NCBI RefSeq assembly: GCF_004210375.1
Contig: NC_134829.1
Span: 28,722,034 to 28,786,033 of the forward strand
Direction of reading: 5' to 3'
Source: Tachypleus tridentatus
Lineage: Eukaryota > Arthropoda > Merostomata > Xiphosura > Limulidae
Length of the DNA: 64,000 nucleotides
How positions within the stretch are numbered: position 1 is the first letter of the stretch; the number at the start of each line of letters is the position of its first letter. The position numbers and the translations under genes were made by a program. Positions 16,240 to 64,000 of the stretch are shown in pieces. Below the pieces are notes generated by a model. The model did no database searches. It worked only from the letters and a program-made list of their open reading frames with translations, and was not told the DNA's origin.

Positions 16240-16810
16240 TAAAGTAAAGCCCAAATTCTGTTGGGAGTACCATCACCTATCCATTTTACAGTGCCTACTA
16301 TGAATCGAGGAATCAGTGTGATAGTTTGGGGGCATACTTCTGTTAAGGCAACAGGAGATATTTGCAAATTAGATGGAGTAATGGACCAGCACAAGTACCG
16401 TCAGACACTGGTCCATCATGGTATACCCCGTGGTTTGTATATTATTGGTAAAGGATTCTGCTACCAAGAAGATAATGACCCCAAGCATCCATCCAACTTG
16501 TGCAGAAATTATTTAGCTAAGAAAGAAGCTGCTAGAATCATTAAATGATGCAATGGCCCCCCAAGAGACCTAGTCTCAACCCCGTTGTACAGATCTGGGA
16601 TTTGATAAATCATAAACTTAAGTCAAGGGTTACTCCAAAGAATATTTATGGGAGTTTAGTAGAAACACTTAGAGGAAATTCTCAAAGGACACTTTAATTA
16701 AATATGTAGCAACCAAGCCAAAAACAACATCTGCAGTTATTAAAGCAAAAGGAGGATACACAGAATATTAACTGTTTGTTGAACTCAAGTACTTCCACTG
16801 AGTTTATGTT
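16240..16810 (+). pseudogene. Tc1/mariner-type transposase remnant
   Basis: A DDE transposase fragment broken by frameshifts and stops. Frame 16261-16548 reads PTMNRGISVIVWG, then DGVMDQHKYRQ, then QEDNDPKHPSNLCRNYLAKK; the QxDNDPKH motif carries the second catalytic Asp of Tc1 transposases. Shifted frames downstream give MQWPP, SPDLNPV-like and IWDFI segments, the third-acidic-residue block, then a tail ending KGGYTEY. The N-terminal DNA-binding part and the terminal repeats are not visible. Lies in the 5' intron of ZC3H18. Confidence 0.85.
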
Positions 16811-32428: not shown

Positions 32429-33124
32429 TTAGATATATTGTGGCTTCTTCATTAGGAAATCTAACCTCTTCAGAATATTATCAGAGCTGTCTTGGCCAAG
32501 ATAATCCATTCGTCCTTGTTCCCAGGCAAACATACCTCGGAAATCTCCCACATCTGCCCCTGGAATATCAGTTTTCTTTGTTATATTTTCTTCTGAGGTC
32601 AACTTCTCAGACGATGCTGTAGGTTCAAAAGTCTTGGAAGATTTTTCTTCAGGTGGTAACACAGAGGTCTCTTCAGTTTCATTTGTTTCTTCTAATAGGG
32701 TCAATTCTTTCAGGTTTTCTTCTACATCAATATTTACTCCTACTGTTGATTTTTCCTCTCTTGTAGGCTTGAGAGATTCATCATTAGAAATGTTTTGTGA
32801 AGGAGCTTCTGGAGGTACTTCAACAGAATTTGTCAAAGATTCATCTCTTGATTTTTGAGAAGTAGGTCTTGAAACAGATCCACTTTCAGCCATCTCAGGA
32901 AGATCTTTAGAAGTATGAGAAATTTTGAAAGATTCATCTCTTGAAGATTTTCTAGAAGTAGGTCTTGAAACAGATCCACTTTCATCTGTTATAATGTCTG
33001 GGTAGGTTCTGAAAGATGGAGGAGTGGGAAGGCTCTCAACAGCTTGAGTTACAGGCGATGGGAAGAAGCTTATAAGCTCTTCAGCTGTGACATACTTTCG
33101 AACGTGCGCATGTGTCCGAATATC
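32429..33124 (-). CDS. GYG: Glycogenin coding exon 6: variable tail and synthase-binding C-terminus
   Basis: 231 codons plus TAA. A Ser/Thr/Glu-rich variable region includes an in-frame tandem duplication with a period of about 96 bp ([10 protein letters not shown]...KS.RDES twice, 33030-32834). The last 31 residues start [17 protein letters not shown] and match the conserved motif by which glycogenin holds glycogen synthase. Six codons follow that motif's usual end. Confidence 0.93.
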   Translation of the reverse strand, partial: DIRTHAHVRKYVTAEELISFFPSPVTQAVESLPTPPSFRTYPDIITDESGSVSRPTSRKSSRDESFKISHTSKDLPEMAESGSVSRPTSQKSRDESLTNSVEVPPEAPSQNISNDESLKPTREEKSTVGVNIDVEENLKELTLLEETNETEETSVLPPEEKSSKTFEPTASSEKLTSEENITKKTDIPGADVGDFRGMFAWEQGRMDYLGQDSSDNILKRLDFLMKKPQYI

Positions 33125-36100
33125 CTGAGTTACATAATCACAACAGTAATGTTAAAATTTAATGCAACATAGATATAAAAATTCTTACAAACACTAACTT
33201 GTTTTATTACCAAGTAATTTTAAAGAGTAACAGATAGATTTAAAACTAATATGAAATATAATAAACACAATATGAGAGCAACTGTACCCTGAATATTTTA
33301 GTGATAAATCATAAAACAAAATTGCTTATTGACAAAAGGTAAAAATTTTAGTCAGACTATCTACAGTTTTAAAATTAATGTGATGATCGAACAAGGAAAT
33401 ATTGACATGACATTTTACAATTTTCTACAGTAATTATTAGAAAGTCATATTTAAAATGATTATTTGTACCAAGTCCAAACTTTCCTCAATAAAAAAACGA
33501 TTCTCAATGCATCTGTTATTTTTGTAAATGGCAAATAATTTAAGGTAAAATAATTTCAAAAGTTAGGTTTTTTTCTAAGTAGCATGTGGTTATTAAGAAG
33601 TAGATATACCTCAGATAATAAAGGAAACACTCTCTTGTTAAAGATACTCAACCAAAATTGCACAAATTGAGCATATGTGGGATGAACATTGGCTGAAGGT
33701 GACATCTGACCAGTCTGTGGGTGGAATTTAACATGCCATGGTTTATAGGAACCAAAGAAATGAACAATTTTCACATTTCTTCCAAATCTATAAAAATGAA
33801 AAATTTAACATTATTGACTCAATATGATAACTAATGTTTAAATATAACCACAGCAGCATACTAATGTGAATATAACTAGAAACAAAAAATATAAAATAGA
33901 ATCTTTTATTTTCACTTAAATTTCTACATTTCAACTGATGATTTAACTTTGAAAGGCTTAAATAATACTTCTCATTAAAACTTGAAATTAACTTATTTAC
34001 ATCTGATCTAAAAACACAAGAAGCAAAGTATTAGTAAATAAAAGATAATTTACTCTTAAACAAAAACTTTTGCTATAATTATGCCACGTGTGTATGATTT
34101 GGAATAAAAGACTATTCCTTGTCACTACAGTGACAAGATTTACATTTAATGAATACACTTACTGTTTGAAAGCAGGAGTATAGGTGTAACTGACATTTGC
34201 CATTAGGTTGTAAATAAATGGTAACTTGTGAGATATGTTAAGAGCCCAGTTTCTGAAATACATGTTCAGCAGTCCCTGGTCACCACCTGGCAAATCAGTT
34301 ATCATTACAAATATGGCCTTTGAATAGAGCAATAATTTAAGCCTAAAATGATTTACTATTAAACTGCAACAAGGAATTATGAATTCTCGTAACATATTTA
34401 GTGTTTTAAATCTTTCATTATAAATCACATTTAAAACAATTTTATTTAATTAGTCAAATATTGTTTTTTTAATTTTGCACAAAGCTATACAAGGACTATT
34501 TGCACTAGCTGTCCCCAATTTAGCAGTGTAAGGCTAGAGGGAAGGCAGTCACCACCACCCAAACTCTTAGGCAACTCTTACCAACGAATAGTGGGATTGA
34601 CTGTCACATTATAATGCCCACAAGAATTAAAGAGAGCATGTTTGGTGTGACAGAGATCCGAACCCACGACCCTCGAATTACAAGTCGAGCACTTCAACCA
34701 CCTGGCCATGCTAGTCGAATAATTTAAGGCATACAATTACTTCATTTCTCTTCACTCCTATCTGCCTTATTCTTGGTTCATTACTGTACAAATCAAGTTG
34801 CTATACTCACTTATAAAATACCTTTTACTGAACTTGAAGGAGGCAGATATCAGTAAGATAATTTCCCCAAACTGTAATACTTAAGTTCACAATTTAAATG
34901 TTTCCATACCGTCAAAGCTGCCTTGCTGCTCAGCAAACTCGATCAATCCACAGAAAGTTTCCATAGCAGGAACATAAACAAATACACCACTATTAAAGCA
35001 GTCTGGCCACCCAATATCTGGTACAGCTGAAATTTCATCTCGTTCAAACAGCTCATCACAATTCTGAACCACCTAATGGTAAATATTGGAATATTTAAGA
35101 CATTCTTGAACTTTAAACTTAAATGTTAAAAAGGTTGAAAAAAAAAAAAAACAAGACAAAAATGTTTCTATTAGTAAAAATGAATTAAATTTTACTCTGT
35201 TGATCACACAGTGATTGCATAAACCCTAAAGTTTAAACATTTACAAGAATAATATATTAAATCATTTCAAAAACTAGTTTTGTGAAAAATATTCAACCAC
35301 ACTTGCTGCATATTCATGTTTCCAATGGTCAAGTTAACACATACAATCCCCCTTTCCAATTGAACATTATTCATATAACTGCTTTCAATTAGAGACAAAT
35401 GAGTTATTCCTAATGGATATTTCATTGTTAATCAATGGTACTATAAAGACTGGTATCTAAGATTTAATATTATTGGTTAAATTCCTACAAACATCTCTTC
35501 CAGATACCTTTATACATTTTTACAAAAGGAACTGACAAACCCAAGGCCAATGTTTCACATGAAAAGGACTTTTGAAGCTCATACAGCTTAAATTGAAAAG
35601 TAATTGTGTAATTTACACTCACACCTACCTTTATTATTCTATTGAGAAAATCATAGAGGATTTTGTTTTGTGTTTTATTGGGGGAGAGACAAACTCGTCC
35701 AAGAAATTCAGTTTGACAAGAGGGTCTCAGAAATATCTAGTGATCAACAAATGTTTCCAACTAATATATGAAGCTTTGCTAAATGGCTAGGTTATCCAAA
35801 TAAAATTAGTAATTTTAAACAATATTCCCCCACCCATACAGAATACCCACTACCTTAGAGAAACTTAGAAATTAAACATTTTACACCCTTGATAACTTAA
35901 GCTTTAGAAGATAATTCACTTTTTACTGATTCTTCAAGGTCATAGTAGTTAAGTGATTTTTTGAGAAGTGTGAACATTTCTGTACTAATTATGTTTACCA
36001 ATGGGGAATTGTGTATTATGTTATTGACATATAGATACAGAATAAAACTTAAAAAAAAAATAAAGTCAACCTCCTTCACGTACCTTTCAAAACTGAAGTA

Positions 36101-39100
36101 TGAATATCTCTATGTAAGTATAGTGAAAAATAATGTTAGAAGTTATAATAAGATACAGAAAACCAAACCCAAATTAAAGTCCATCTTTACTTTGTGTATG
36201 GGAGATGTTATAATATTGACAAGTCTCCCAGAAATGTTTACACATTGCACAGCATAAGCTATGTTATCAGGGCATATTCTTCTATGATCAATCATTTACA
36301 TCATGTAAAAACTCAGTGAAACATGAATAATTAACTTTCTATACAAATTACTTCATAATTTACCATAAGTTAAAGATACTTGATACTATTACTAGGGCAT
36401 GAACTAACTCACCACAGTATCTGGAGAAAGAAACACACACTTTGAAAATTGTGTCAGCCTCCAAATATGAAGTTTTGTGAAAGAAACCCCAAGTTCTGGT
36501 TGATCCAGCAAAGCCAGTTTTGTGGTTCCTTGAGTTCCTAAAAGTCGGATGGGCTGAACAATGTGAAACACTGTTGCCAGCATGTGTCTGAAATCAAAGT
36601 TAAGTTTTATTTATATTACTCTTAATAAAATGTCTTGCAAACACAGGATTAAAAAAACAAAAGTAAAGATCTTTTTATATTTAAAACTCAATGATAAACT
36701 AAGACTAACAATAATTATTTTCTACACAAAGATGTTCAGTAGTCTATAACAAATACCCACACAAGCCTTCTGTTGACATACAACCAGTTCTTTCATTTCA
36801 AAAGTTGGATACCTTTGACTGGAAGCAAGAACTTTTTAATACCTCTTAAGCTACTCTTTCTTGCTAGTTTTTACAAAAGGCTCAAGATCAGAAAATTGTG
36901 GGTTTGCTGCACTTCTACTGCTGAGGAAGTAATCTCCACTACCATTACCAGTGTGGTGTTCATGTACAAGTTGTGTAATTTTACTTTCAAAGAATCATTA
37001 TGCAATATTCAAAAATGATAGGCCTATCAATCACCACCTTAAGTTTTTCTGTAACTGGGAGATGAAATACCTCCTATTGGTGTTACATCAGTATGTTAAT
37101 AGTTATAGTTTTTGCTCAGTCTGTGTGGACTTCAAACCATTCAAGGTAAAGCTTGGTGTCAGCTGGCACACAGTTTAGGGTGAAAAACATTGTAACAAGC
37201 TTTATCAGGTCAAGTATATAGTTACCAATTGGCCATTTAACTTGTTCAGCAATTTCATGGAAGAAGTTTTCTTACAAGCATGTGCCTTAACCATCTTGTC
37301 AGTCTTTTGACCAATTTTCTTCTGTAAGAAAGTTATACCAGTGGATCACATCACTTAACTACCTTTTTCTTTGCCATTACAACATTCTGAAACAATTAAG
37401 ATATATTTTGACTCCCTACGTCTTATTTAAATTATATGAATCATGAGTATCACACAGTTATACCATAGCTACCATGCAGCACTTTTACAGTAATTATCAT
37501 TCTACACTACATTTGTATTTCCATACTATATTACCACAGTATTAGTTACTACAACTTGTTTTAAATGATATATATGTAAATACGTCTCGTTTGGGTTGAG
37601 AAAATTTTTTACATAGAGGAGTGAACAATGTTTTGACCTCCTTTGGTCATTGTTAGGTTCACAAAGAAAGAGAGGTAACTGACCAGAAGCTGACCACATG
37701 TTTGAAAGGGGTTGTGTAACTGAGTCAGAATGTAGAGGGCAGGCTTAGATGTTTGAATATATAATTTTATATTTATTTTATTATTATTTATTATATATTT
37801 TAATATAGATATAAAGGTGTTCCTTTGTATTGGTTTATTTTGGGCTTAAGTTGTTGTATAAGTAAGGCTTCTTTAATTTTGCATTTGTTTGTTTCTTTAT
37901 TTAGTATTTGAGTTTTTTCTATGGTTATGTTGTGCAAGTCAAATAAACACCTTTATATCTATATTAAATATAGTAAAATAAAATTATATATACATTCAAA
38001 CATCTAACACCGCCCTCTACATTCCAACACTCAGTTACACAACCCCTTTCAAACATGTGGTCAGCTACCGGTCAGTTACCTCTTTCTTTGTGAACCTGAC
38101 GATGACCAAAGGAAATCGAAACGTTGTTCACTCCTCTACGTAAAAAATTTTCTCAACCCAAACACTAGCTATTTAGCCATATTTACATATACATTTCTCT
38201 ACATCACTGATTGTTTTAATGATAGTTACCACACTGCTATCACAGTATTTAAACTACTACAGTTACCACTGTATAATTCACATTATAGCAGGCTGTACAG
38301 AAAACAATCACACTATAGATGTACAACAATGAACTGAGGAAGGCATTATTGACATGGTTTTAATAGTGATTTTGCTTTTTTTTTTTTAGTCATAATGAGC
38401 TCAATGTCTGTCACTTTTAAATGAAGCACAAAGCCATGACTTAAATTGTTTTTTTAATACTGTTTCTTTCAACTGGAAACAAACAAATGTAGGTTAGGTA
38501 ATTTAAGCAGTTGTTATAACACTAAGGTTTGTTTAGCATAATCAGAAGAATACGGAGCCCAATAGTCACATTTTAAAATAGGAATGAGGCACATGGTGAA
38601 ATAAAATATGGAATAGAATAACCACTAGTGGATATGGCAACCTCTACATCCTATGGAAGGCCATTAATAATGTTATATATCATAGGAATCATCCTCCAAC
38701 CTTTTGTGCAGTTGGCCCTGACCTTAGTCTAAGAAATGGTAATACACAAACCCACTATGCTAAACTGGTTGACACATTCCTTGAAGACTTGCACATATTT
38801 GATAGCCATTTCATCCCATTAAGCAATTCAGTTATCTAAGTTACTCTGGAGAGCTACTGGAAATGACAAAGCAGCTATACTGATATTAGGCAATCAACAT
38901 CAGTTTACCCTTATTGTTCATACTGACCAGTCCATCAATGTCAAAGTTGTAAAGTATAAGGCCACTTGTGTGTTTCAGATCACATGCAAATTATCAGAAC
39001 CCTGATAAGCCCACATAAAAATGAAGTAAAATGACAACGTAGAACATTGCAATGCACCATTATACCTGAAACATTAATTCCAGCTATCCTGAAATCCACA

Positions 39101-42100
39101 CTGTAGTGCCATTGTTACATTACTACATCTATTATACCAGTTATACAGTACTAAATTTCATATAGCAGCTACAATGCTCACTATTCATTTAAAAAACTGT
39201 TAAGGAAGTTACAGGAAAGCCAAACACTGAATTTAGATTTTTTAAAATCATAATAAAGCACATGCATCATGAAAAACTGAACATTTGTAGTAATCACAAC
39301 TGAAACTTTATGGGGAGAGGTACGGTACCTTTTGAATACTAAATCAAGATGTACATAATATTCTAAACAGAACACAACCAAGTTTAGTAAACATTTTCTA
39401 GCATTTTAAATTCTATATGAATGTTGCATTATTGTGTAGAAAGCTGAGTGCATAAACTAAAATGATGTTACATATGCAAATTAGCAAGCCATGTGAAATG
39501 AAAGCCAATAATCACAGGTGAACAGCATGCACAAGAACTATTAAGAATTGAGTGTATCTTAGATAATGTGCTGTTATCAAATAATCATTTTTGAAAGTGA
39601 TATTTAATGGCCATTCTTGAAACAAAATATTCATACAATCTGATCATTACATGTAGATTAAGGATTTAAAATTTCCAAGACAAGGATATATCTTGCACTT
39701 AAGACATTAGAAAATAAAGGAATATGGTTTAACCTGGAGGTACTAGGGTCATTCAAGAATGAGTCTTCCTCAACGAGCAACATTTGAAATCTTCTAACAT
39801 AAGAATTGACACTTTGGGCAAAATATGTACATGTCACAGGTAATAATAGTATAGAACATTATCAGGAAAGATCTCCATCTCGGAAAGTAACAAGTTGCTT
39901 TTATGATATCAGTTAAATTGCTGCACACCCCATGAAGTTGAGAGAACGTGGTTATTCGTACTATTACACACGACATACTGGTCAAATTGTCAAATGTAAC
40001 ACCTACAGATTTCTGCCTGATCAGATTATTAGATTTGATGCTGGTAAAGTCATCCTCATACATAATACAAAAAATTAAAAGCACGTGGGAAGAAATTGTG
40101 CGTTTTGGCCATAAATGTAATAATTTTGCAGTAGAAACTATGATGCAGGGTTTTGTTTTTTAAAAATGCATGATGTGGCAGGATGGACTGGACTGTAATA
40201 ATAACATGAAGGTGCAGTCATTTTAATAAAACATTTCATTTGATTAATAAAAATGGTTCATTTAAACAGTTTTCATTAAGAGAAAAGAAAAATCCTATGT
40301 TAATGCCAGCAGGGATCATGGAGGAAAGGCAAGGATAAGCAGTCTGGTCAGCTCATTTCTCATTCTTATAAAAACACAGCCACAAACCTTCAATCTTCTT
40401 AATTTCTGCTGTAAAAAAGCCAAGAAGATCAGACATGGCAATCATTCTCCTGGAAAATAATAGTATTGAATACTATTTATACTTAAGAATACTTAAGAAT
40501 ATTCCCAAAGCATCTTAGATAAGAATAGTGTTTTTTTGATCTAAATTACCAAAATTGGATTCTCCCTCCCCTTTGCTAAGGTTGAGCCACTAAGCCCATC
40601 TTAATATTTTTTTGAGAGAAAAAGGTGACATTTTTCCCACAAAAGACAGACAAGTAATGATTAATAAAGCAAGGAACAGGTGATGTAGTAAAGGAAGCAA
40701 TGTCAATGTTCTCTACAATATTTCATTGAATGGAATAGTTTAAAATTAGCCATAAGAAACTTGATGCTCACTGATCAAACCTACCATGCAATCTTGTAAG
40801 AGGTACTAGATTATTATTATAAGGTCACATCCAGGACAATATAGTGGATTTAGAGTTTCTTAGACAGTGCATCCAAACAGCGTCAGAGAATGTCCATGAC
40901 ACTTAGGAAATCTGACTGGCATTTACCCAGCTATTTACAACTAATCCTGAGGAAGCCACTGTAGTGATTTCTGTCTAAAAGAATGAAAAGCCAAAGTGGC
41001 AAGTTGCAGTGTTAAGCATTCACTATTCTTCCCTTTCACAGGTTACCAGTTACATTTGACATGGATGAATGACTGGATCCCAGAGAAGGTATGGTGCACA
41101 GGCACCATGTATACAAGTCAATATGAGGTCATGTTGAACTACAATTTTTCAAAGAAAACTGATGATGCTTAAGCATTATGCTTACAATGTTATATTTCCT
41201 GTACTTTTCTTTTGTAAAAAACATTATGTAATTATTTCTTGCAATATGCATATACATGTAGAAGCATGAACAAGTAATCACAAAAACAGCATTCCTGCAG
41301 TTGGAAGAGAACAAAAACAGATGACAATAGGTTGATGCATTTTATATTAATAATCACTAACACTATTATAGCTTGTGATAAAACTACAGTGCAGTTGTGG
41401 ATGTTACAAGTTCTTTTTTAAATTAAACAAACTTAATTTTCTTTAGAAGTTAACATTTGTTACAACAATATCCTTACAAGCTTGTAATTGTAAGTCATGG
41501 GCACAATGACATGTAATGAAACTTATCTGAAATTTTTAAAAATCAAATTTTAAAAATAGTTTAAATTATTTGAAAAAAGTAAAACAAAAACTTTCAAAGA
41601 GAAGAGCCAAAATTACTTACCTCAGTGGACGACAAACTCCATCTGTAATTAGAACCACTAAAGTCCGATTGGTTCCACTCAATCTTAACGAATTTCCTAG
41701 AACTATACAACCAAGAGCACACAGATTATTGGATGCTATGGTAACATATGCTTGTTCAAGTTTTTCAGGCTCAGGTGGACATGGAAGCCAGTCTCTAACA
41801 AAGTCAACCATTTTATCCCAGCTCTTTGGCCTTGGCAAAGTTTTCCATTGAGAGCCATCAGTTACTTCATAACTGAAAGCATGTGGAACTGGTGAAGTAT
41901 GGGAGTTTTGAGCTGTTTCAGATTGATCAGAAGCAGCAGAGAAAGATGATTTTGCCCAATGAGGTGGATGATGAACTCTCCACTCTTCTGGTCTGGACTT
42001 CTCTCTATCACGATTAACTTCACTTGAACCACCATATGAATCGTGCTTATTGGACTCCTGTAAGTGCAAAGAAAAGTATCCTTTATTATAACCACCTCTT

Positions 42101-44047
42101 GGCAATGGTGAGTAATGGACTTGTACAGGAGTTGAGTAGCATGATGGTAGAGAGGATGGATGGGTGCCTTGGGGAGATGGATGTTCAGTTTCCCGATTAA
42201 TTGGAGAATGAGAAGTAGAAAGAACACCACTGTATGAGGGAGGTAATCTACTTTCTTGATTAATTGGAGACGGATGTTCAATTTTCTGATTAACTGGAGA
42301 ATGAGATGTAGAAAGAATACCACTGTGCACGGGAGGTAACCTACTTTCTGGATTTATTAGATGCAAGCAAGAGTTTTCAAAATGAGGAGATACTGAATGA
42401 CTGGATGAATTATCATGGCCCTTTTCACCATTATGCAAGTCAACACTCTTTTTATGCTCCAAGTTTTGATACTGATGGTATTGATCTACAGATGATTTTG
42501 AACCTTGTTGACTAATCCATGCCTCCATAGCATGGCGTCTGGGGCAGGAAGTTGAATGTTGGAAAATTTCTTTTTTTATTATTTCTTCACTAAAATTAAA
42601 ACCTCCCATATTGAAACACCATTGGGACTGATGCTGCTCCAAGCTGGAATCCTGCTGGGACTGATGCTGCTCCAAGCTGGAATCCTGCTGTTTTAAAGTG
42701 ACACCACAATTGCATTCTGGGAAATGTGCAAAGCTTTCTGAGACTGGTACAGATTCCCCTAAATCTGAAGTTTGAGATACTTTAAAGGCTTCTTCTTCAT
42801 TGTTTACTCTGAAAGGAATCATTGCTTGCTGCAATCTTTCTTTCACACACCAAAAGCACTGCTTATCACCATCTTTCCCTCCACCTCTCACAATATCTAC
42901 AACCACATTATCCAGAAAATCTTGCAATATTGCAATGTATGACAAAACTTTTTTTGAACAAAATCCACAGATATTAGATTTATCTTTGGAAACCCAAAGG
43001 GTATTTTCTTTAGACAGGCCTGTTTCATCTTTAATTTTTGCATCTTCTGCACAGCTACTACTAAGAAATTTTTTAAAAGTTTCATCATAAAAATCTGGAG
43101 GTTCATTGGCATGTCTCGAACACTTAGATGGAGTTACTTCTGTCCGATGGTCAGCCTTGGAATCTGTATCAGATACATTTTGATCATTTATTTTTGTACC
43201 TTCTTTGAACTGAACTTCTATGCTTTCACCTTTTTGTTCACAGGAACTTTCTTTGAGTGGCACTCTGTCTTGAGATTCATCATCAAAACCATCAACAATT
43301 GCAAAATCTAAGTCACTCTGCAATGGTGGGACTTCTGGAAAGTCGGGATAAAAGTACTCTTCTGAATCTGTCTCAGCTACTGCCTCATCTCTATGTAACC
43401 CATGAACATCTATTTCCAGAAATTCTTGTTCTTTTTGCACCTTAGAGAACACCAGTTCAGAATCTAAAGATGCTGAGGAGTCAGACATAACCAACTGTGC
43501 ATGTTCTACATCCTTAGGAAGCAAATTGATTACACCATCATCAGTGATGAATGTGTCAGTGCTTTCTTCTTCTGCAGAATCTTCAGGAAAATTTACTTGT
43601 TTTTGCTGATAGGCTTTAAGGAACTGATCACTCGTATACCAGTTTTTGTCTGTGTAACTAATAGCATCTTCATTTAGATTGTCTCCTGATTCTACTACAA
43701 ATTGTAGTGAGGTATTTTCTTTATTGTTCTGTACAGTTACTGCTTCATTCTGTCTATATTGATCACCATATTGAAATTTATCCAAGTTCCTCTCTTGACT
43801 AAGTACAGATGATTTTTCTTTAACTGGAGAAAATGAATGCCGAGGGTTTGAAGAAAACATTACATATTCTGAAGGGTTTTCAACCTCTGTCACACTGTGG
43901 TCAACTTCCACTTCAGCTCTCCGTTTAAAATCAAAACCTAAAGCATCCAATTCATGTTTGTCGGTTGTTTCTAAATGCTGCATTACATCAGGACATGCTG
44001 CTGTTACAGCTTCATTCTCTTCTTTTAGAAGGCTGAGTGATGCCATT
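32429..44047 (-). CDS. GYG: Glycogenin with long N-terminal extension (complete, six coding exons)
   Basis: Glycogenin primes glycogen synthesis in the cytosol by glucosylating its own tyrosine from UDP-glucose. Exons: 44047-41621, 36587-36413, 35072-34910, 34286-34163, 33787-33610, 33124-32429. All junctions are GT-AG and all phases close. The start is set at ATG 44046, because a TTGCAG acceptor ends one base before it. The protein is 1253 residues; usual animal glycogenins are about 330-700. Residues 1-762 are a disordered extension. The GT8 domain begins [12 protein letters not shown] at 763. Conserved: K847 (K86 in mammals), D921/D924 (D160/D163), Y955 (autoglucosylated Y195), H972 (H212), K978 (K218). 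The DxD site at 863-865 reads SPD instead of DAD. The C-terminus carries [17 protein letters not shown], the glycogen-synthase-binding motif. Mammalian numbers are from memory. Confidence 0.93.
33610..33787 (-). CDS. GYG: Glycogenin coding exon 5: end of GT8 domain
   Basis: One base plus 59 codons. [19 protein letters not shown] corresponds to the VVHFLGRVKPWNY segment of mammals, with the metal-ligand His and the active-site Lys retained. Ends FPLLSE before a GTATAT donor. Confidence 0.94.
34163..34286 (-). CDS. GYG: Glycogenin coding exon 4: GGDQG motif and acceptor tyrosine
   Basis: 124 bp, phase 1 to 2. [11 protein letters not shown] holds the D163 equivalent. [20 protein letters not shown] aligns with the mammalian segment carrying Tyr195 and Tyr197, so both tyrosines (955 and 957) are kept. 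Confidence 0.95.
34463..34714 (-). mobile_element. SINE-A copy (full-length type) in a glycogenin intron
   Basis: On the minus strand: tRNA-like head with GGCCAGGTGGTTGAAG (A box) and a GGTTCGGATC-type B box, then CCAAACATGCTCTC, ATTCGTTGGTAAGAG, a body, and an A-rich tail with GCTTTGTGCAAAATTAAAAA. About 250 bp. No conserved target-site duplication was checked base by base. Confidence 0.85.
34910..35072 (-). CDS. GYG: Glycogenin coding exon 3: [13 protein letters not shown] block
   Basis: 163 bp, phase 0 to 1. [19 protein letters not shown] and [18 protein letters not shown] are hallmark glycogenin sequence. It ends GSFDG with Gly split across the intron; this Asp corresponds to D160. Confidence 0.96.
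35073..36412. other. Glycogenin intron, no feature seen
   Basis: AT-rich sequence between exons 2 and 3. Frames at 35572-35790 and 35961-36257 are not recognised. Confidence 0.6.
36413..36587 (-). CDS. GYG: Glycogenin coding exon 2: [11 protein letters not shown] block and altered DxD
   Basis: One base completing Arg, then 58 codons, with a GTGAGT donor. [19 protein letters not shown] matches the conserved glycogenin block containing the catalytic Lys. The next motif reads [10 protein letters not shown] where family members read KCVF(M/L)DADTLV, so the first metal-binding Asp is Ser and the middle Ala is Pro. The codons (TCT CCA GAT) are unambiguous in this sequence. Confidence 0.93.
37621..37662 (-). 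ncRNA. Hammerhead-ribozyme-like motif, left arm (mutated core)
   Basis: Minus strand, 42 nt: stem I GTGAAC pairs with GTTCAC; core CTAACAA (consensus CTGANGA); stem II GACC/GGTC intact; AAAAC in place of GAAAC. Two core changes should abolish cleavage. Penelope-like elements are known to carry minimal hammerheads with a tiny stem III that act as dimers. Confidence 0.6.
37800..37943 (-). pseudogene. C-terminal GIY-YIG endonuclease fragment of a Penelope-like element
   Basis: 47 uninterrupted codons and TAA. Reads [13 protein letters not shown], then [19 protein letters not shown], ending TPLYLY. The [13 protein letters not shown] segment is typical of the end of the GIY-YIG domain that follows the reverse transcriptase in Penelope-like elements. 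The rest of the protein is missing (5' truncation), so it is not functional. Confidence 0.75.
38090..38131 (+). ncRNA. Hammerhead-ribozyme-like motif, right arm (core intact, stem II weakened)
   Basis: Plus strand, 42 nt: stem I GTGAAC (38090-38095) pairs with GTTCAC (38126-38131); core CTGACGA (38096-38102) fits CTGANGA; GAAAC (38118-38122) is present; stem III would be only the ACGT step (38121-38124). The 3' side of stem II reads AATC rather than GGTC, losing two pairs. Confidence 0.65.
38210..41610. other. Rest of glycogenin intron 1, no feature seen
   Basis: No homology recognised. A stretch at about 38.6-39.1 kb has coding-like composition in places but no readable domain. A mock exon at 40390-40459 is discussed under rejections. 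Confidence 0.45.
41621..44047 (-). CDS. GYG: Glycogenin coding exon 1: 760-residue extension plus first GT8 strand
   Basis: One 2.4-kb open exon, exceptional in this AT-rich DNA and so certainly coding. Residues 1-350 are acidic and Ser/Glu-rich. Two CxxC pairs (C360/C363 and C397/C400) could bind zinc (inference). An 11-residue tandem repeat, [11 protein letters not shown] twice, lies at 42689-42624; a 31-residue Pro/Ser/His-rich repeat lies at about 42355-42165. GT8 homology starts at residue 763 in the same exon and continues to GVCRPLR, where a split AG|A codon joins exon 2. An internal ATG at 41811 (residue 746, [17 protein letters not shown]) could give a conventional short glycogenin if used. 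I recognise no family for the extension. Confidence 0.9.
42624..42689 (-). repeat. 33-bp perfect tandem duplication inside glycogenin exon 1
   Basis: Two identical 33-bp units (42624-42656 and 42657-42689) encode [11 protein letters not shown] twice. In frame, so the protein is lengthened by eleven residues rather than broken. The identity suggests a recent event. Confidence 0.9.
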
Positions 44048-47000
44048 CTGCAAGATATTAAATATCCTTTCAGAAATAATTCAAACATCTGTTAATATGT
44101 TGTATTATCAGTTCTAAATTGTAAAGATGGTGCAGGAACTGTCATTTTGACTAACATTATGCAAGATCTGATAGAGTTTTATCTTAAAAATTGAGTAAAT
44201 TCTCTAAATGCCTTATTACACTCATCTGTTTATCCCCTTACTGTTGTATGTTAACAGTAACTGATTAAACTCCTATCAACTGTTATGGATGTTAAGTATC
44301 AACTTATGTTGCTTCTAAAATAGACAAACTGCACAGATTAATAGCAGGTCACATTATTAAAGCTATAAAATAGGCTATAAAGCTATAGAATATTGAGTGA
44401 AGTTGAGAAACAATATAGATCAGGAATAAAACACCACAATTCACAAGTCTAAAAATATGGTTTTAAAAATCATGCTTTACAACACAATTCTGAAATCAGT
44501 TTCTTACAGGTATATAGTTTAAAATGCTAAAACTAACGTTTCTTACTATACAATTAATAGGCACCAAATGTGATGACCAGTGCAGAAAGATTGCAACTAT
44601 TTAGCACACATCACTCTGAATTGGCCTTGAATGGGCATCAATAACAAACTTGTAAATCAGTTTCAGAGTTGAGCTTGGCTGTTGATGTAGGCTTTCGATC
44701 AAAACGTGAATAATCCAGGATATTTACACTCGAGGTTTTATTAGCCATATTTCTTCTTACTATTCGTGTATGGAAATAAAAAATTAAACGATACAGAACA
44801 AACACGTTGACCTCAGTCCTTAATACAATATGTGCACTGAAAATAAGAAATGATATAAAATTGAGAAATATGAACTGTACAGATTTGAACTAGTTCAATG
44901 ACAATGAAACGATGCATTTGTTTCTACCTTATTACGTGTGTTGTATGCAATGAAATGACAAAATATGCAAGAAAAGATTCGAACCATACAGAGTATAGAC
45001 GATCCTATTACGCATGTGGGACAGAATCTTGTACACCTAACATTTAACACTGTTGGTCGTTTTATGCTCTCCAGCATAGTACAATTTAATGTTTATTTGT
45101 GTGAAAAATATAACTATTATACTGAAATTTTAAATGACTATAAATCTATACTACTTAATGATCATACTACTCTGGGGAGTTTACACACTTTACACGAAAA
45201 AGGTTCGTAATTGAAAAGATTGGTCATGGTCCATCCGTACCATTACAAATTCCTACAAGTAGTAATTGACCTTTAGAATCTCATGGAACCTAACCCTTTG
45301 TTGTTTTTTGCATACGCGTTATTAACACATTTCGATGATTTTATTCGAGAAATTGGATAATCATTAAATAACTTGAGCTCAAAGTTTACTGCACGAACCA
45401 ACGTAAGATACTCCCTAAATTAAACTTCACTTTCTTCTGATGCAGGTCAACAATTACCTAACTTGAAACACACAAAACAGTTTTCACTATTTCAAAGTCG
45501 ACACCACTTCCGTTACGGGAGAGGGCGGAAAGAGAGTCCTTTATATTTCTCTGACAATCGTTTACAGTTTTTGGTGGCAAATCTTCATCCAGTGCAGCCG
45601 CGATTTCATGTCTTGTATGACACTTCCCGACGGAAGGTGTAACTCAATACTATCGCGTGAGATGTCACACCACATTCTTTAAAAACAAAATGTGGCTGGA
45701 AGAAAATGGTTGATTTTAGTGGAGAAATTATTGGTGTGGACACGTAATATACTGTATTATTTCAACATGAAACTGGTACTCACCATAATGTCATTATCAG
45801 ACTAAGCTATATAATTATACATTTACTTATTTTGTCAACAAAATTTGCACATAGTAGCTACTAGTGTTGGGGACAGCAATTCTTATTGTAAGCTTGCTGT
45901 TGATTCTATCAATCTGATACTCCATATCGTTTTTGAAAATTCTGCTAATCGCAGCATGGTTATATAAACGTGCGTCATTTTCAATTATTCTCATGCTGTT
46001 ACTAAATATATATTTTTTTTTTTTATTACGGGAAGTTATCGTTTTTAGTTACCTGACGTAAGCAATAGAAGACCACTACTTGCGACTCGTCAAGATTCAT
46101 ACATATAATACAAATGATTTAGCTACGAGGTAGCAAACAGCAATTTCCCTGCACTTTTCTAGGATTTAAAACTTCAGGTCTTATTTATATCGCTATACTT
46201 TTCAGATAGCACCAGTTTTCCGTAAGAAAGTATACAAGTCGACAGAATAAAGGGGACATTCATTGCCAAATAAGTTTGTATTATCTAGAGTAATTTGCAA
46301 GCAACCAAGACTGAGTGAAAGTACAATCACTGATCTTTATTCGCACGAGCACTGTGAAAATGTATTTTACTTGCCACAATGGGCACCTTCCTTGGTTGGA
46401 AGACATTCTAGCTTAAGACGAGGTAGTATGCAAGATTACCCGTTTACTTTGTGTTCCATACTTAATATATCTCCAGTTACTTAGTTAACATAAGGCTTTC
46501 CCAGAGCTAGCGGTGTGACTGGCCATTTCACAGGAAACAATAGGGGTCATTACCTAAAGATACTACCCGGCTTTCAGTGGAAAATAACATCATACTGCAG
46601 GTGAGATTTCAGGTATCTAACACAGGAAAACACAAGATGCAACTCCAAGTGAATGACACAGAATAGGTAGCAAGAGCGACAGTAACTTTTTGAACGTGCA
46701 CATATCTTAAATTTTACAAATTGTCTAATTTAACAAAGTAAAGAAAAGTAGTACTTTTACATACCACATACTTTAAGTTATAACAAGTCAAAAAAAGTCA
46801 AACATTTTCGAAAGTAAATAAACGTATCATGAAATTAATTCTTTAAAAATTCATACGATGTAAATGGTTTTGGAATAAATCCTTACCCAAACTTCGTTGT
46901 ATTGTAACAAAACTGTTTATAAAATTACTCAAGAGTCAACTCAGTTCAAAACGTACCAGTTTCTCAGACGAATTGCTAATAAGGCATCTCCACTAATACT

Positions 47001-50000
47001 ATATATCAGTTATATCCCCGTTTCCATAAAGTGTCGTGGTATTGTTAAAATGCCCCCTCGGCACTAGATACAGAAAATATGGTATGTTTAGTATATTACA
47101 CTTTACTTTCAAGTGTTAATTTCATTCTTTCTCCTTTCCCCCCTAACAAAACAACCAAGTTTTATTAGTACATTTCACGAGTTTGGTAGAATTCTAACGC
47201 CCTTCATACACAAATAGAATGCTTTATGAAAACTTTGCACATACCAGCAGAGGTTCAACACTGTGTGAAGTACAGAGTGCAAATGACAAAGCATCAACTT
47301 CCATACACAAAAAAATTAAAACCAAAATAGTTAAGTTTAGTATTTCTAATAGTGCACAAACGAGCAGTAATTCTGTGTCTTAATAACTAAACACAAGACG
47401 TGACATTTCATACTAAAAGTATGGATCCCGAGTTAAGCTAAAACCACACACACACGTTACCAATAGCGCATTAAGCAAACAGGACAGGAATAGTTTCTTA
47501 GGATTCTACATAAATCAGTTAACTTCTGCAGTCACCAGAATGCAATATCAAAAGAGGATCATTAGCATCTCCTACCATTAACACCTTTATTTTACTAGAT
47601 TTCTACTAAAACATAATCAGTATACAAGACGTCGTTAGGAATATTTGCAAACTTTCATTTGTTTATCATTGAAATTACTGGAGGTTACTATTTATGACCA
47701 GAAGCACGTGACGCATCAAGAGCCTTACGTCAGCTCACGAGAATCATTCACATGGAATTTCTTTGTAGGAGTCAAATGATTTCATTCTATTTCCCATATT
47801 GTTCGATTTAACCAATCGCATCACTTATAACGTTGTGCAAATGCGATCTAACTAAAACTCAATTTAAAGCACAACAACCAAATTGTGGGCTGAAGATGAA
47901 ACAAATCGAACACAAAACTGTCTACTCTCAAGGTGATAAACAACAGAACTGACCTGATATGCAAATTAAAAACGTGACGTTCTCATTTCCGAAACTTCCG
48001 AATACCCTGTGCTTAACGAGTTTCACGCTGATATTAAAAACTCCAAAGCTAAATCGTTATCCTATTAACTAAAAACAAGTAACACCACAGCCACGCAAAC
48101 ACCTAGAAATACCTGTCAAAAGTTCAACTTAGTTCAAAGCTAGTGCACCACGTTACACGGGAAAATGTCAACATGTAAACACACTGACAGCCAACAAGCC
48201 ACTGTCCATTCTTTTTAAGCCAGAAAGGAATGAAACACTCGACCTGGATAGAGGTCATCTGCGGTTACGATAGTTTAACAGTAGTTAGGTATCTGGAATT
48301 GACTGTCTTCAGATGAGGAAAATGCAGTGAACGCAAGAGGTTTAATAAATGTTTAAATAATAAAAAAGACTAGCCAAGCCTCGCTTTTAATTCCGTTTCT
48401 AATAGACGTGACAGCCTATATGGATCAAGAGGTTTCTTGTTATGTATTATATTCACGTAATCACATCTTAGTGATTTTTGTTCACGTTCGGTTATTTAAC
48501 TGTTTGTTTTAGTTTTTGCCCCAGTCCTCACTAGTGTATTTATTTATTTACCTGAGGGTGAGCTAATCCCACCCACAGTGATATTTAAACTAAACAATTA
48601 TTAAAAGTTAAATAACGTCACAAATAAACCCAAAAGTTCAAAAACCAAACTGGTAAGCCTGGTTAAAAAATACAGGTTTGAGAAAAGTACCATTCGGTAG
48701 ATTTCTCATATATTACAATGTTAGGAAGTGTCATAAAAAAATTTAAAATTTAATTTTCGTACAAAAAGGCGATAGATTTTGTTGCTGTTTTTACAGTAAA
48801 AAAACATAACCAGTACGGGTGGGGTGGGGGGCTGAGAGCTTGAATCTAAGTCAGACATACTTGTGGAGATCGTAATCACGTGAGGCGAAAAGTGTTAACA
48901 TAATACAGCGTCAAGTAAAAATTGGATCAGAAACACAAAATGAGGAAAGCTCGTGCACACTGTCACGTGAAATATTCATACACACGCAGGTCTCATCACG
49001 TGTTACAGTTTGACCGTGATCCACACGAACTACTTGGGGCCCAAGGACAGTGAAGCCCAAGTTTCCATAAACACAAGTATGGTATCTAAAAGCAGTAGTC
49101 AAGTTAAAGCTTTCGACTAAACTATTAACACGAAACACAGAAACTGTTGCGTAAGTAATTCAGTCACTTCCTCCACGCTGTTTCTAATTATGGACAACCA
49201 TTAACTCAAATTAGCCAGGAAAAAGTTTTGAAGTGAGAAAGGAGAGAACTAGTGAGCAAAATAGTAATGATTTGTGCTCTAAAGAAATGTAAAAATAGAG
49301 AGAGAAAGAGAGGTTTGAATTACATAACAGTACCGTGTCGTCTGTCCATGTACCTACTTCACAGGATGTGACCGGATCGTCACCAAAATTGGTATGGAGG
49401 TCCATAAGGTTTGCATAGGTGTACAAACAAATTCAGTTTTGCATATTTTTCGGTTTTGTTTTTGTGGTTTTTATGGGCGTTTTCATAATTATATACAAGG
49501 GAAGCAACTTTGTCCTAAAATAACCCTTAAGTCATTAATTTACACAACTTCCGTCCAGGGAACGAGTACTCTAGCTAAAACTATACATTCACGATTATCG
49601 TAAGTTTATTAGTGACTTGATAAACAAGAAAGCCATAGATCGTATGTTGTTTTTCGCAAATCTATGTTATACAAATATTAAATAAAACGACCTTAAAACA
49701 GTTACGCAAGACTAGTTTTTCCAATAGGAAGTTTGTTTTTATTTCAAAACTAATACTGAACAAGTCATTCTTAACTGGTTATTAACTATGAATTTGCACA
49801 GTAGACAAAACTTCGTAAACAACTTGCTAAAACTGGTTACAAACACACGGACATAACATCGTAAACAACTTAAGTTCCCTGTTCAATAACCTTTAACAAA
49901 TATGACACGTCGTCACCTACGAGTACCTCGAGATACCCAGTTCATTTTTTTTTTTTGTTATCCACTGAATTATAGGAAGAATCGTTTTACCAAAGCAGAG

Positions 50001-51280
50001 CCGTTTTTTTTTTTTTTTTAAGGAGATGGGTGGCATAATAATAATAAAAATACTTAAAATACTTTTACTGGTTTCCGATACGGACGAATATTTTGAACAC
50101 ATCTAATTAAAAGTTTACACAAATTTAGAATTATTATAACTGTGTAAGGAAAGCATTAGGGGGGGATGGAGCGTGCCCACTCAAAGTATATGGAAGCGAT
50201 GCCACTGCGCGAGTATTATTAAACGAACGGAGACAGGGGGAAGCTAACATACCATCAATGGCAAAAGGTTCAGCCATAACGTCTACGTAAATGCACTCCA
50301 CCCCCCCCCTCACAAAAGCTGAGATCAGCATTTAAAATAACCTTGGTTTGAATACGTGAAGAAATTTAGAACAATATCTACCCGTTTGTGAAAAGTTCAT
50401 TTGTATAGCTTCATTCAATTATTATTATTATTTACATAACAGTCTACGTATCAATTTTACAACACCTGCATATTGAGAGCCAGAAATCTTTCAGGGTTCA
50501 TGTTAACATTAAAATAAGATATAAAAGTCAGTTTGCGAAAATCAAACGTGTAATTATCATGAAACTTAACGTTATGAACACGATTTTTCTCGGATAAAAC
50601 CTGGGCCTATAAAATTAAATATTCGCCGAGAAAACATTGACTTAATACACCCACCGAATATCGGTAATACTTTGTTAGCTCATCTTGTTATTACTAGTAT
50701 CACTTCACACTAAACATTCCAACTTGCTAGGTATTAGTTTCCATGTGTATCTACCAACTGGAATATTAAAGTCATAATCGCGTTCAAACATTAATAGAAT
50801 ATCAGATTATACAATGTATCTATATTTGACGCATTCGTCACAGTACGATAAACTTTCTTGCATGTTGTATTACAAGGGCCATTCATCAACAATTTAATTC
50901 AAATCGAAGTAAGTTCTCTTTAATACAAAATGCTTAGTTATTGTGAACGAATTTAGGACTATTTATAAAGTAATTACTTTAACGTCTGGCTTCCTCTGCC
51001 AGCTTTTCTTAGGCATCACACACCATTAACACAATCTTGTACATTATTTACATAATATAGGTTAATATTCTCATGCATTTTAAAGTACAAATCTGTGCAC
51101 TGTTAATATTACATAATCTTACCCATTTGAAACAGATTCAGATGCAGGAACAAGCAGAGATGGAAGTTGAACAAATAATACTATAGCAGGTTCTGCAAAC
51201 AGCTGAACTACATAAAAGTTTAATATTCTACTGCCACAAGAGAAACCAAACTTTTTAACTGCATGAAATGTGTACAAGCT
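44048..51280. other. Glycogenin 5' flank and intergenic DNA, no gene supported
   Basis: The acceptor at 44048-44049 implies an upstream non-coding exon and promoter. CpG-containing DNA at about 45.5-45.65 kb is one candidate place, without a clear core promoter. Frames at 46263-46484, 48911-49138, 49211-49426 and 50134-50331 are unrecognised. Homopolymer runs at 49946-49956 and 50005-50020 (T). Confidence 0.45.
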
Positions 51281-51299
51281 TGATGAAAGAATGGTCAAT

Positions 51300-52050
51300 C
51301 AATCATTTAAGTTTACTAATGATAAAGGTCTTAGGTATTCCTGGCCGTGAAGACGATAGTGCTACTTTACAAAATAAATTAATTTAGCGAGACGGACAAA
51401 CAACTTTTAGATAGGTTTTGATCACGATAAATGCAAGATATTGCACGTGGGTTATAGTCTGAATGGAAATAATCTGAAACAATGTCATGGAAGTAGGATG
51501 CTGGTGTAATAACTGAAGTCTCTTAAGCTATCTAAGCAGTGTACTGTTGTCAGTTGTAGGGCAAATATGATTTTTTAGGTTGTATCTACAGAAATAATGA
51601 ATACAAGTCTAAAATGGTCATTCTGTTGTATACGTCACTTGATTGACCATGTTTTGGCTATTGTGTTCAGTTCTGGACATCTTACCTTAGGAAAGACAGA
51701 TTGTTGGAAAAGGTTTAAAGAAGGATTACCAAGGTAATACTTGGGGTTGTCATAGGAGAGATTAAATCCGTAAAAAGGTTTCTTCTTAAAAAAGTTAGGA
51801 TCTGATTGTAGCTTTAAGATTGCAAAAGGAAGTTATAATGTTGATGCATCAACATTTTTCGTACTTCACGAGATAATTATAGAACTAGGAGAAATTTAGA
51901 GAAAGCAAACGTTTTCAGCTAAGACTATTTATGAAATTCGGTGGTGTGGCCTATAGCATAAGTTGTCTTCGAATGTTGTGGAAGTAGTAAATTTGAGCGA
52001 GTTTAAAGCTTGATATATACAGGAATGATAAACTGTTTAAATGTTTAAAC
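51300..52050 (+). pseudogene. CR1-type LINE 3' fragment
   Basis: Broken frames give FDHDKCKILHVGYSLNGNN (family: FNVDKCKVMHVGYNNPN) and, further on, HLTLRKDRLLEKV, RDNYRTRRNLEKANVFS and the degraded W.SLP tail region, in the order found at the 3' end of CR1-like ORF2. Multiple stops. No intact reverse-transcriptase core. Confidence 0.7.
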
Positions 52051-56179: not shown

Positions 56180-57110
56180 ACTATAAATTCCATTTAACAT
56201 TTTAATCGCCGCAATCAGATCCTCTCTGTCTCTCTCTTTTTTCTTCAAGATAAAACGATTTGAGATATTTCAACCTCTCCTCATATGACAAGTCCTACAT
56301 CCAAAGCACCATTCCAGTGATTCTTTCCAACGATTCAATGTCCTTCCTAAGGTAAGGAGCCCAAGATTGAACACAATACTTTAAATGTGGCCTAACAAGT
56401 GACTTATACAAAAGAAATTACAATCTCTTTAGATTTGTATTCAAGATTTATGTAGATACAACGTAAAATCTTATTTACCCTACCACGTGCAACAGCACAG
56501 TGCTTGTATAGCCTTAAAGACTGATCCACCATTACACCAAGACACCTTTCTTTCATGACACTGTTAAAGTTATACCCATCCAAATTATACTTATAATTCA
56601 AATTGTGATAATCTACATGCACTACCTTGCATTTATTACAGTTTAAAACCCATTTACCATTTATTTGTCCAACTCACTAGTGATTTAAATGACTTTGTAA
56701 ATGAACAGCATCCACTTCACATATAGCAGCACCCAAGACCTTTAAGTAATTTATTGACCATTCCTTCATCTGTGCCATTTATACAAATAAAAAAGAGCAG
56801 AGGTTCTAAAACTGAGGTCTGAGGTATCCCACATGGATTAATGTAATGAGACTGATTGAGCTGCATTTGTAACAACCTCCAGCTTTCTTTTATCCAGCCA
56901 CTCTTCAGTCCATTTTGCTACCTAATCTCCAACACCTGTGGAAATGTTTGTTTTTTACAAGCCTTTTATGTATCATCTTGTTAAATGCTTTCTATAAATC
57001 TAGATACACTAAATCTACACACTTTCCTTCATCTATATAAGCAGCAACCTTTTCAAAGAATGTCAAAATATTTTCCCTTAGTGAAACTATGTTGACTGCC
57101 TAATAATATT
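56180..57110 (-). pseudogene. CR1-type LINE reverse transcriptase pseudogene
   Basis: The longest LINE remnant here. On the minus strand, in order: FFEKVAAYIDEGKCVDLVYL, KAFNKMIHKRL, then VVHVDYHNLNYKYNLDGYN, ERCLGVMVDQSLRLYKHCAV, ILRCIYINLEYKSKEIV, and REDLIAAIKMLNGIYS at the end. These are consecutive CR1-like ORF2 segments. The FADDT catalytic block cannot be read and several stops and frameshifts are present. Frame 56622-56404 is the best-preserved stretch. Confidence 0.88.
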
Positions 57111-62580: not shown

Positions 62581-63213
62581 ATAGCAACTAATGTGGAATT
62601 GTTAAAAAGATTACAAAACAGGTGTGTTTAACCAATGTTGTTGCATGTTCGTCTGACAGAATATTGATATGAAGTTTATAACTATAAACAGAAGTTTATG
62701 TTTTTTTTCTCTCTGCAGAATATCCATGTGGTCTCTGTTCTTTGCTTTATTTTGTTTTTTCTGCACTAGAATACAGGAAAATATCTGTTTACATTCAAAA
62801 GTGTCTTGCTGCACCTCTGAGCCCGACTTAAATAAAGAGATCATCATGTAGTATGTTTAGCTTCCACACGGTGGCAGCACATTTCCAGAAGAAGCTAAGT
62901 ACTATTATTTAAAACCGTGGCTCAGTATCGTCCAGTGTGTAGTTGATAGACTTCGCTGTTAAACCGTCAGTGAAGCGCTAATACTGTGTATATTATTCTC
63001 AGCCTCAGGCGAACAATACAAAAAAGTATGTACTTGGAGAGTGTTGTTTGTTGTTATCCTACTGTAGCTGTGAGAGTAAACAACTGAAAACTGAAGCAAC
63101 GTCATACAAATGTTCACAATGACAACTAGCCCAAGAAAGGCTCTAAAGCAAACACATGTAATTATTTCAAAATTTTAATAAAACTTTCTAAATGTTAACT
63201 CAGTTTGTGAATA
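62581..63213 (+). promoter_or_regulatory. Aquaporin 5' flank / leader region
   Basis: The leader must lie here or further left. AACTCAG at 63196-63202 could be an acceptor just before the start codon. TGCAG at 62714-62718, after a T/C-rich tract, is another acceptor-like site. No TATA box or initiator stands out. Confidence 0.3.
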
Positions 63214-63906
63214 ATGGCGCACCCGACGATTCCCAGCTTGGACTATGATCCCCAGACAGTAAGCCCAACACGGGTAGCGATGATGGGATCTATCATTAGC
63301 CCCAGCCAATCTACTGTGGAGGTCATGCGTCGTTACATTGAATCTCTTCCACAAGACATGACCTTTCGGGAGGAGATAACCAGTTCTCAGCTTTGGAAGT
63401 CCCTGAAAGGCGAGTTGTTGGGAACGTTATTGTTAACTGTGGTGGGATGTGGCGCTAGTCTGTCTGTCCAGCCAGATTCTGCAGCTGTGCAAGCTGTCAC
63501 ACTTAAAGTGTCTTTAGCATTCGGGCTGGTTATTGCTTCTCTTGTGCAGTGGACGGGACCTGTCAGCGGTGCCCATATGAATCCTTCTGTTTCCATAGCT
63601 TTGCTCGTGACCCGTCATATCAGCGTGCTGCGGGCCAGCCTCTACATTGTGGCTCAATGTGCCGGTGCTCTCGCTGGAGCCGCCGTATTGTACGGACTCA
63701 CACCACTGGAGCAGCGAGATTCGGTAAGTCTTGGAGCCTGCGAGCCGTCGAAGCACCTCCACCCAAGTCAGGTTTTTGGGTTAGAGTTTTTGGGAACACT
63801 GTTGGTCGTTCTGACCATCCTATCAAACGCTGACCCAGCCAGGACGGACTCTGGTTCCAAGGCCTTGTCTGTAGGTTTTTCCTACACTGCTGCACATCTG
63901 TTAGCG
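63214..63906 (+). CDS. Aquaporin (MIP family), first coding exon; continues beyond window
   Basis: A water-channel subunit of the plasma membrane. 231 codons from ATG 63214 to a GTAAGT donor at 63907, phase 0. A cytosolic tail of about 62 residues precedes the first membrane helix (KGELLGTLLLTVVGCG). KVSLAFGLVIASLVQWTGPVSG and then AHMNPSVSIALL follow: the first pore loop reads NPS (123-125), not NPA. The Phe in VSLAFG matches the narrow-filter Phe of AQP1, which favours a classical water-selective channel. Helices 3 and 4 follow, and the exon ends AAHLLA, just before where helix 5 leads to the second NPA motif, outside the window. Alternative: an insect Drip/Prip-type or Big-brain-like member. 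A GTAAGT inside the exon at 63725 is read through, since the frame and homology continue. The exon is visibly richer in G+C than its flanks. Confidence 0.93.
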
Positions 63907-64000
63907 GTAAGTATCTTTTAACTAACGCTTCTAGTTATTTTACTAACTGGACAAATTATATGTGCACAGAAGTGTTATATACAGGGGTTCTTCCACACAA

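Follow-up and report, generated by a model that had tools for sequence, protein, structure and literature searches.

Glycogenin is commonly viewed as a small enzyme whose job is to initiate glycogen particles. The locus described here raises the question of what a glycogenin may do when its GT8 domain, instead of beginning near the start Met as expected of glycogenin, is preceded by 762 open residues in the same exon. The window (the whole stretch of 64,000 nucleotides that was analysed) carries this gene on its minus strand. Is the extension truly part of a glycogenin gene, and is the resulting protein still a primer?

A coding extension fused to a glycogenin domain

The gene was modelled as one long exon and five further exons, with all five introns of the GT-AG type, and encodes 1,253 residues counted from ATG 44046. 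The protein is laid out as the extension (residues 1-762), the GT8 domain (763-1022), a linker and a C-terminal tail. The exons, and two repeats inside the long one, are as follows.

41621..44046, minus strand: long exon, encoding the extension (residues 1-762) and the first part of GT8 (763-808) in an 824-residue open frame
42173..42358, minus strand: 93-bp (31-residue) repeat, two in-frame copies (TRF, 84% match)
42623..42690, minus strand: 33-bp repeat, two identical copies (TRF, 2.1 copies, 100% match)
36413..36587, minus strand: GT8 exon in which the DxD motif is altered (S863-P-D865); GT-AG, 175 bp as in the paralogue described below; aligned to GYG1 and GYG2
34910..35072, minus strand: GT8 exon; GT-AG, 163 bp as in the paralogue
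34163..34286, minus strand: GT8 exon with GGDQG and Y955 (the equivalent of GYG1 Tyr195); GT-AG, 124 bp as in the paralogue
33610..33787, minus strand: last GT8 exon; GT-AG, 178 bp as in the paralogue
32429..33124, minus strand: last coding exon, with a disordered-looking linker and a C-terminal motif resembling the glycogen-synthase-binding end of glycogenins

The long exon lies in a minus-strand stop-to-stop frame at 41617-44091 (824 residues), which contains ATG 44046. GT8 starts at residue 763 (Leu, at 41760), the extension runs into it in frame and without an intron, and the donor GTAAGTAA follows directly after 41621. The last acceptor of the gene, AACTCAG/GATATTC, was taken from the printed sequence. 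An earlier note on this DNA had claimed an extension of about 760 residues that passes uninterrupted into GT8 within one exon, and the 824-residue frame, free of stops, bears this out. The range given there, 41811..44046, ends at ATG 41811, and the exon continues past it to 41621. The extension had also been described as acidic and rich in Ser, Glu, His and Pro; its 762 residues include 13.1% S, 9.4% E, 7.2% D, 6.0% P and 4.6% H, with 127 acidic residues against 72 Lys/Arg.

In the extension frame, 0 stops were observed against a mean of 55 in the shuffled exon (the lowest of 200 shuffles had 32). With training on the remaining exons of the window gene and on exons of two neighbour genes, mean codon log-odds were positive for the true frame in all eight bins of 100 codons (0.06 to 0.33), and the maximum among 99 noncoding stretches (minus strand, 44.9-60 kb) was -0.07. 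The sole bin in which one reverse frame beat the true frame was 601-700 (0.24 vs 0.15), one of the eight. Both internal repeat units (93 and 33 bp) are multiples of three, and the copies of the 93-bp repeat, when compared, gave a dN of 0.14 and a dS of 0.33. The extension is coding and is fused to the glycogenin GT8 domain.

When GT8 was compared with the PDB (phmmer), it matched GYG2 (E 1.8e-85) and GYG1 (E 3.4e-83) at positions 19-275 of the 277-residue query, and is homologous to glycogenin over nearly its whole length. The tail gave a 25-residue match to GYG1 C-termini in the PDB (E 1.1e-4) and a weak match to the GYG-1 peptide 4qlb_G (E 0.046). The match covers 25 residues only, against the C-terminal ~34 residues that have been reported as the minimal synthase-binding region of glycogenin (PMC9188544). 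Judged by this similarity, a putative C-terminal glycogen-synthase-binding motif is present in the window protein.

A second extended gene and the Cys/His module

A search of the 2.17-Gb assembly with the extension as query returned two matches among 6 scored candidates, namely the extension itself and C10:173436613-173436984 (E 3.9e-18). The latter sits in a 502-residue open frame that continues directly into GT8, and belongs to a paralogue on another chromosome (C10:173434678-173455129) for which a seven-exon model with GT-AG introns was built. The C10 paralogue resembles the window gene in the fusion of a Cys/His module and GT8 within one exon, in the four exons after the long exon (175, 163, 124 and 178 bp, with identical lengths and phases in the two genes), and in the tail motif. 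It differs in having an upstream exon with a likely anchor, D-P-E rather than S-P-D at the DxD position, the changes H212N and K218N, and ~450 extension residues in its long exon against 762 in the window gene.

The earlier note had recognised no homologue of the extension; searches of Pfam, NCBIfam and the PDB agree with this, but one paralogue, that on C10, is found in the same genome. In Pfam the extension gave sub-cut-off matches alone (best, DUF5620, E 0.0041, and RPA_interact_C, E 0.012), and we attribute these to chance, the C10 long exon having matched 0 families. It matched 0 families in NCBIfam (bacterial and archaeal models) and showed no homologue in the PDB search. Scans of the long exon, the last exon and two C10 exons yielded no carbohydrate-binding Pfam domain. 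AlphaFold2 models of two extension parts, each made from a single sequence, were uninformative (mean pLDDT 38.3 and 36.7). RVxF-like motifs of the PP1-docking type occur in both extensions and were dropped as candidates, with ~0.7-0.8 per extension expected by chance. The glycogenin papers found, judged by their titles and abstract openings, contained nothing on a protein of such extended design.

The first in-frame Met of the C10 long exon falls seven residues past the start of the first CxxC, therefore the whole module requires entry from an upstream coding exon. A first exon (C10:173434678-173435345) lies 0.8 kb upstream and joins the long exon in frame. It begins MSEFLFSSSITVPLAVAVSALCYTTYVYFRKHRQK, has a hydrophobic start (best 19-residue Kyte-Doolittle mean 1.92) followed by RKHRQK, ends in an acidic tail, and likely encodes an N-terminal membrane anchor. 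In the genome search this exon had no other match with E <1 (next best, E 1.03); within the window it gave low-scoring matches only, none of them acceptable upstream of the long exon; and in Pfam it gave one sub-threshold match (TMEM87A-B_GOLD, E 0.012). No membrane segment was found in the window extension, where the best 19-residue mean was 1.41. Upstream of the C10 gene, a weak RVT_1 match (E 9.2e-5, below the cut-off) was seen at C10:173432212-173432688.

The module shared by the two extensions is located in the window as follows.

42787..43173, minus strand: Cys/His module (residues 292-420), with CxxH 309/312, CxxC 360/363 and CxxC 397/400; core 358-414

The CxxC pairs at 360/363 and 397/400 are just where the earlier note had placed them. 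Cys 309, His 312 and Cys 360, 363, 397 and 400 are identical in the window gene and C10. The module core is 54% identical between the two (dN 0.34, dS 1.40, dN/dS about 0.25), the conservation of the module resting on these two sequences. Outside the module, the extensions are 25-27% identical in a forced alignment (dN 0.73-0.96), which is near the level that unrelated disordered chains may reach. A profile of the two modules matched 0 PDB chains and had 0 confirmed relatives in IMG/VR and GTDB contigs (non-animal collections). The module is probably zinc-binding. In GT8, the window gene and C10 are 70% identical, and of their 236 nucleotide differences 142 fall at third codon positions; in the tail, the last 44 aligned residues are 66% identical. 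As read from these alignments, purifying selection is acting on GT8, the tail and the module core. The simplest reading would be that the fusion is older than the split of the window gene and C10.

Altered catalytic residues and a possible docking role

The GT8 search of the genome gave at least 25 exon matches at at least five loci: the window, C10, C7 and two on C13. A search with the Pfam GT8 family reported C4:62076322-62076468 alone (35.9 bits) and was judged insensitive because it missed the glycogenins; the C4 match itself is separate from the five glycogenin loci. In the C7 gene and both C13 genes (all three of the other glycogenins found), the GT8 exon opens directly behind a splice acceptor that is absent from the extended pair; the upstream exons of the C7 and C13 genes lie outside this comparison. 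Among the matches listed for the extension, none was at the C7 or C13 glycogenins.

The DxD metal-binding motif (D102-A-D104 in GYG1) is D-A-D in human GYG1 and GYG2 and in all three other glycogenins found in the genome; it reads S-P-D in the window gene (S863-P-D865, the motif thus being absent from the window protein) and D-P-E in C10. In both extended copies Tyr15 is replaced by Cys, Arg77 by Gln and Asp13 by Asn, and C10 additionally lacks Asn133, His212 and Lys218 (the last two as H212N and K218N). We take H212 and K218 of GYG1 to touch metal and phosphate, and Y15 and R77 to line the donor site. D102, D104, H212, K218, Y15 and R77 are all six kept in the three other glycogenins found, and Lys86, Asp163 and Tyr195 in all seven sequences compared. 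The window copy keeps D104, H212, K218, K86, D163 and Tyr195 (Y955). In a tree of the seven sequences, rooted for drawing only, the extended pair is grouped with support of 100/100 on a long stem of 0.49 changes per column, and the other three glycogenins form a group with support of 88/90.

The DxD motif has been reported as essential for Mn2+ coordination, and human glycogenin-1 with p.Asp102His is expressed but has lost autoglucosylation in vitro and in patient tissue (PMC5203857). S863 of the window protein occupies the same position as human D102. Because the DxD motif is altered, and the human D102H change at this position abolishes autoglucosylation, the enzyme core is probably non-working as a primer, with the qualification that D to S in the window gene differs from D to H in the human variant. 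Weak activity is possible in the window copy because D104, H212, K218, K86, D163 and Tyr195 are kept. GT8 and the tail are 70% and 66% identical between the two copies despite the DxD changes; selection thus maintains both fold and tail, even as the catalytic site has diverged in two different ways. Since the DxD motif was looked for and is absent, the window protein is filed as glycogenin-like and probably synthase-docking, not as an active primer.

The reading that we favour, and hold with some confidence, is that this is a glycogenin-derived protein in which self-glucosylation is lost or nearly lost and synthase docking is kept, and whose N-terminus places or regulates the complex. GT8 would still fold, the C-terminal tail would dock on glycogen synthase, and the 760-residue N-terminus, acidic, disordered-looking and with its one Cys/His module, would position or regulate the complex. 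The protein may act as a non-priming partner that associates with glycogen synthase either by itself or in a mixture with one of the three other glycogenins. The synthase could then be held at a site defined by the N-terminus, or be kept from the active primer, much as human GYG2 restrains synthesis. The fused coding frame, the similarly built paralogue, the altered DxD motif and the retained tyrosine and tail motif are shown; we infer that activity is lost and that zinc and the synthase are bound, and likewise the localisation and any effect on glycogen.

The window protein is like GYG1 and GYG2 in its GT8 domain (50-51% identical), its acceptor tyrosine and its C-terminal tail motif, and differs from them by the 762-residue extension, SPD in place of DxD, Y15C and R77Q. 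Human GYG2 has been reported to show minimal autoglycosylation and to suppress glycogen formation, its low activity being ascribed to the flexibility of Y228 (PMC12267440). As a mechanistic analogy, GYG2 and the window protein would both be paralogues of lowered self-glucosylation that bind the synthase alongside an active glycogenin; for the window protein, the sequence suggests reduced activity. The two differ in that the DxD motif of GYG2 is intact, and in that the GT8 match begins at residue 36 of chain 8z0a_E, without a large N-terminal extension there. STBD1 is a glycogen-binding protein with an ER anchor followed by a cytosolic, glycogen-related part. An N-terminal anchor with a glycogen-related cytosolic part would be a similar arrangement in the C10 paralogue; unlike STBD1, the parts scanned had no carbohydrate-binding domain, and in the window gene no anchor was found.

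Alternatively, the dead domain could be a primer acceptor in trans, pairing with another glycogenin that glucosylates its tyrosine, with a localised primer as the result. This overlaps the docking reading, although the outcome differs, and we regard it as a real possibility that should not be assumed. The tyrosine and the tail motif are kept in both extended copies despite the changed DxD, three glycogenins with intact DxD are available in the genome, and glycogen synthase has been reported to bind glycogenin as dimers (PMC9188544). However, the tyrosine could be kept for structural reasons.

It is rather unlikely, in our judgement, that the protein is an active, tethered glycogenin, which would self-glucosylate weakly or with another metal or sugar donor while the extension merely positions a normal primer. 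The window copy does keep Tyr195, K86, D163, H212 and one DxD aspartate, its GT8 is strongly constrained and all exons are intact. Nevertheless, D102 is lost in the window gene, D104, H212 and K218 are lost in C10, and Y15 and R77 are lost in both, all six being retained by the other three glycogenins found; moreover, the D102H change has been reported to kill the human enzyme (PMC5203857). The earlier suggestion that the extension tethers or regulates the primer fares accordingly in two ways: a tethering role gains weight because the C10 first exon encodes a likely membrane anchor, but an ordinary primer with an added tether is not supported, since neither extended copy has a normal DxD motif.

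Returning to the docking reading, we would extend it only tentatively to chelicerates as a group, in which glycogenin pseudo-enzymes may make up a family of their own, duplicated and equipped with a new Cys/His module and, in at least one member, a membrane anchor; they would be platforms that fix synthase to a membrane or another site and decide where or whether glycogen forms. A very long glycogenin that is conserved yet seemingly dead, alongside three copies with intact motifs, would show the glycogenin fold serving also as a docking platform in animals. Such a role would agree with recently reported evidence for human GYG2 as a brake (PMC12267440), and would offer a natural system in which to study glycogen placement within the cell.

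Gene start, integrity and surroundings of the locus

The region upstream of the long exon was delimited by its CpG profile.

44641..46000, minus strand: probable promoter and first-exon region; CpG o/e 0.93, with a step at about 44.65 kb

The long exon and the rest of the gene each have an observed/expected CpG ratio of 0.18, against 0.93 at 44641-46000 and 0.84 at 46-62 kb. In the C10 gene the CpG step falls between the first exon and the long exon, close to the end of the first. CpG depletion in invertebrates usually marks methylated transcribed bodies, and this puts the window promoter upstream of the long exon. Specificity is lacking, however: 16-19 kb and 30-32 kb are also CpG-poor outside gene models, and CpG is normal (0.69-0.92) in three of the four 500-bp bins at 173.4455-173.4475 Mb within the C10 gene. 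Across the window (1-64000) the ratio is about 0.2 over two minus-strand genes against about 0.85 over 45-62 kb, a contrast that could possibly serve as a map of transcription units in this genome.

ATG 44046 is a putative start, with a phase-2 acceptor (CTTGCAG/A) adjoining it at the start of the long exon. A search among minus-strand ORFs in 44047-52000 for one with a hydrophobic start and a phase-2 donor gave no convincing first exon. Candidates at 45077 (60 residues) and 44748 (36 residues) had no convincing join to the long exon. A bacterial promoter scan was not meaningful for this gene.

To the idea of two transcription units, with a separate gene for the extension or an internal exon promoter giving a short glycogenin from ATG 41811, we give very little credence. 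ATG 41811 does have A at -3 and G at +4. The earlier note had considered a promoter inside the exon, but there is no promoter-like recovery of CpG near this ATG (o/e 0.16-0.34 near 41.8 kb), the recovery coming at about 44.65 kb. No stop separates the extension from GT8, C10 has the same fusion, and the acceptor that starts the GT8 exon in the three other glycogenins is not seen in the window gene. An assembly artefact or a decaying pseudogene, for which the altered catalytic motif might speak, is scarcely credible, since the same design is found at a second locus of clearly different sequence, neither gene model has a stop or broken splice site, and GT8, tail and module core appear to be under purifying selection. 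The frameshift or assembly joining of two genes that had been raised earlier can likewise be set aside, as C10 repeats the frame, the fusion point and the Cys/His module.

Two hemocyanin exons, chosen from at least 25 matches in the genome, had as their best PDB matches 1lla (with equal chains) and 3ixv, Limulus and tarantula proteins, in keeping with a chelicerate; a spidroin query, run with no positive control, gave no match. Elsewhere in the window, open stretches at 16243-16545 (plus strand) and 56407-56673 (minus strand) resemble to the eye remnants of a Tc1-type transposase and a reverse transcriptase, both without a significant Pfam match. Downstream of the extended gene lies a CCCH zinc-finger gene (minus strand, 9487-15053; Pfam zf-CCCH_4, E 9.9e-9 at 9487-9855), in which an acidic exon (14379-15053, minus strand) was grouped with the zinc-finger exon by inference; together the two presumably resemble ZC3H18. 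Upstream, on the plus strand, is an aquaporin exon (63211-63918; Pfam MIP, E 7.4e-43). The closest paralogues of these neighbours are on C1, at C1:48859997-48860323 for the zinc-finger exon (76% identical) and C1:49000422 for the aquaporin (80% identical), rather than near C10, so that a whole-genome-duplication origin of the C10 copy is unsupported. Among the matches listed for the extension, GT8 and C10 queries, none was on C1. The two C1 paralogues are 140 kb apart and in the same orientations as in the window, which suggests a duplicated block between C5, where the window lies, and C1, and points to a large-scale duplication.
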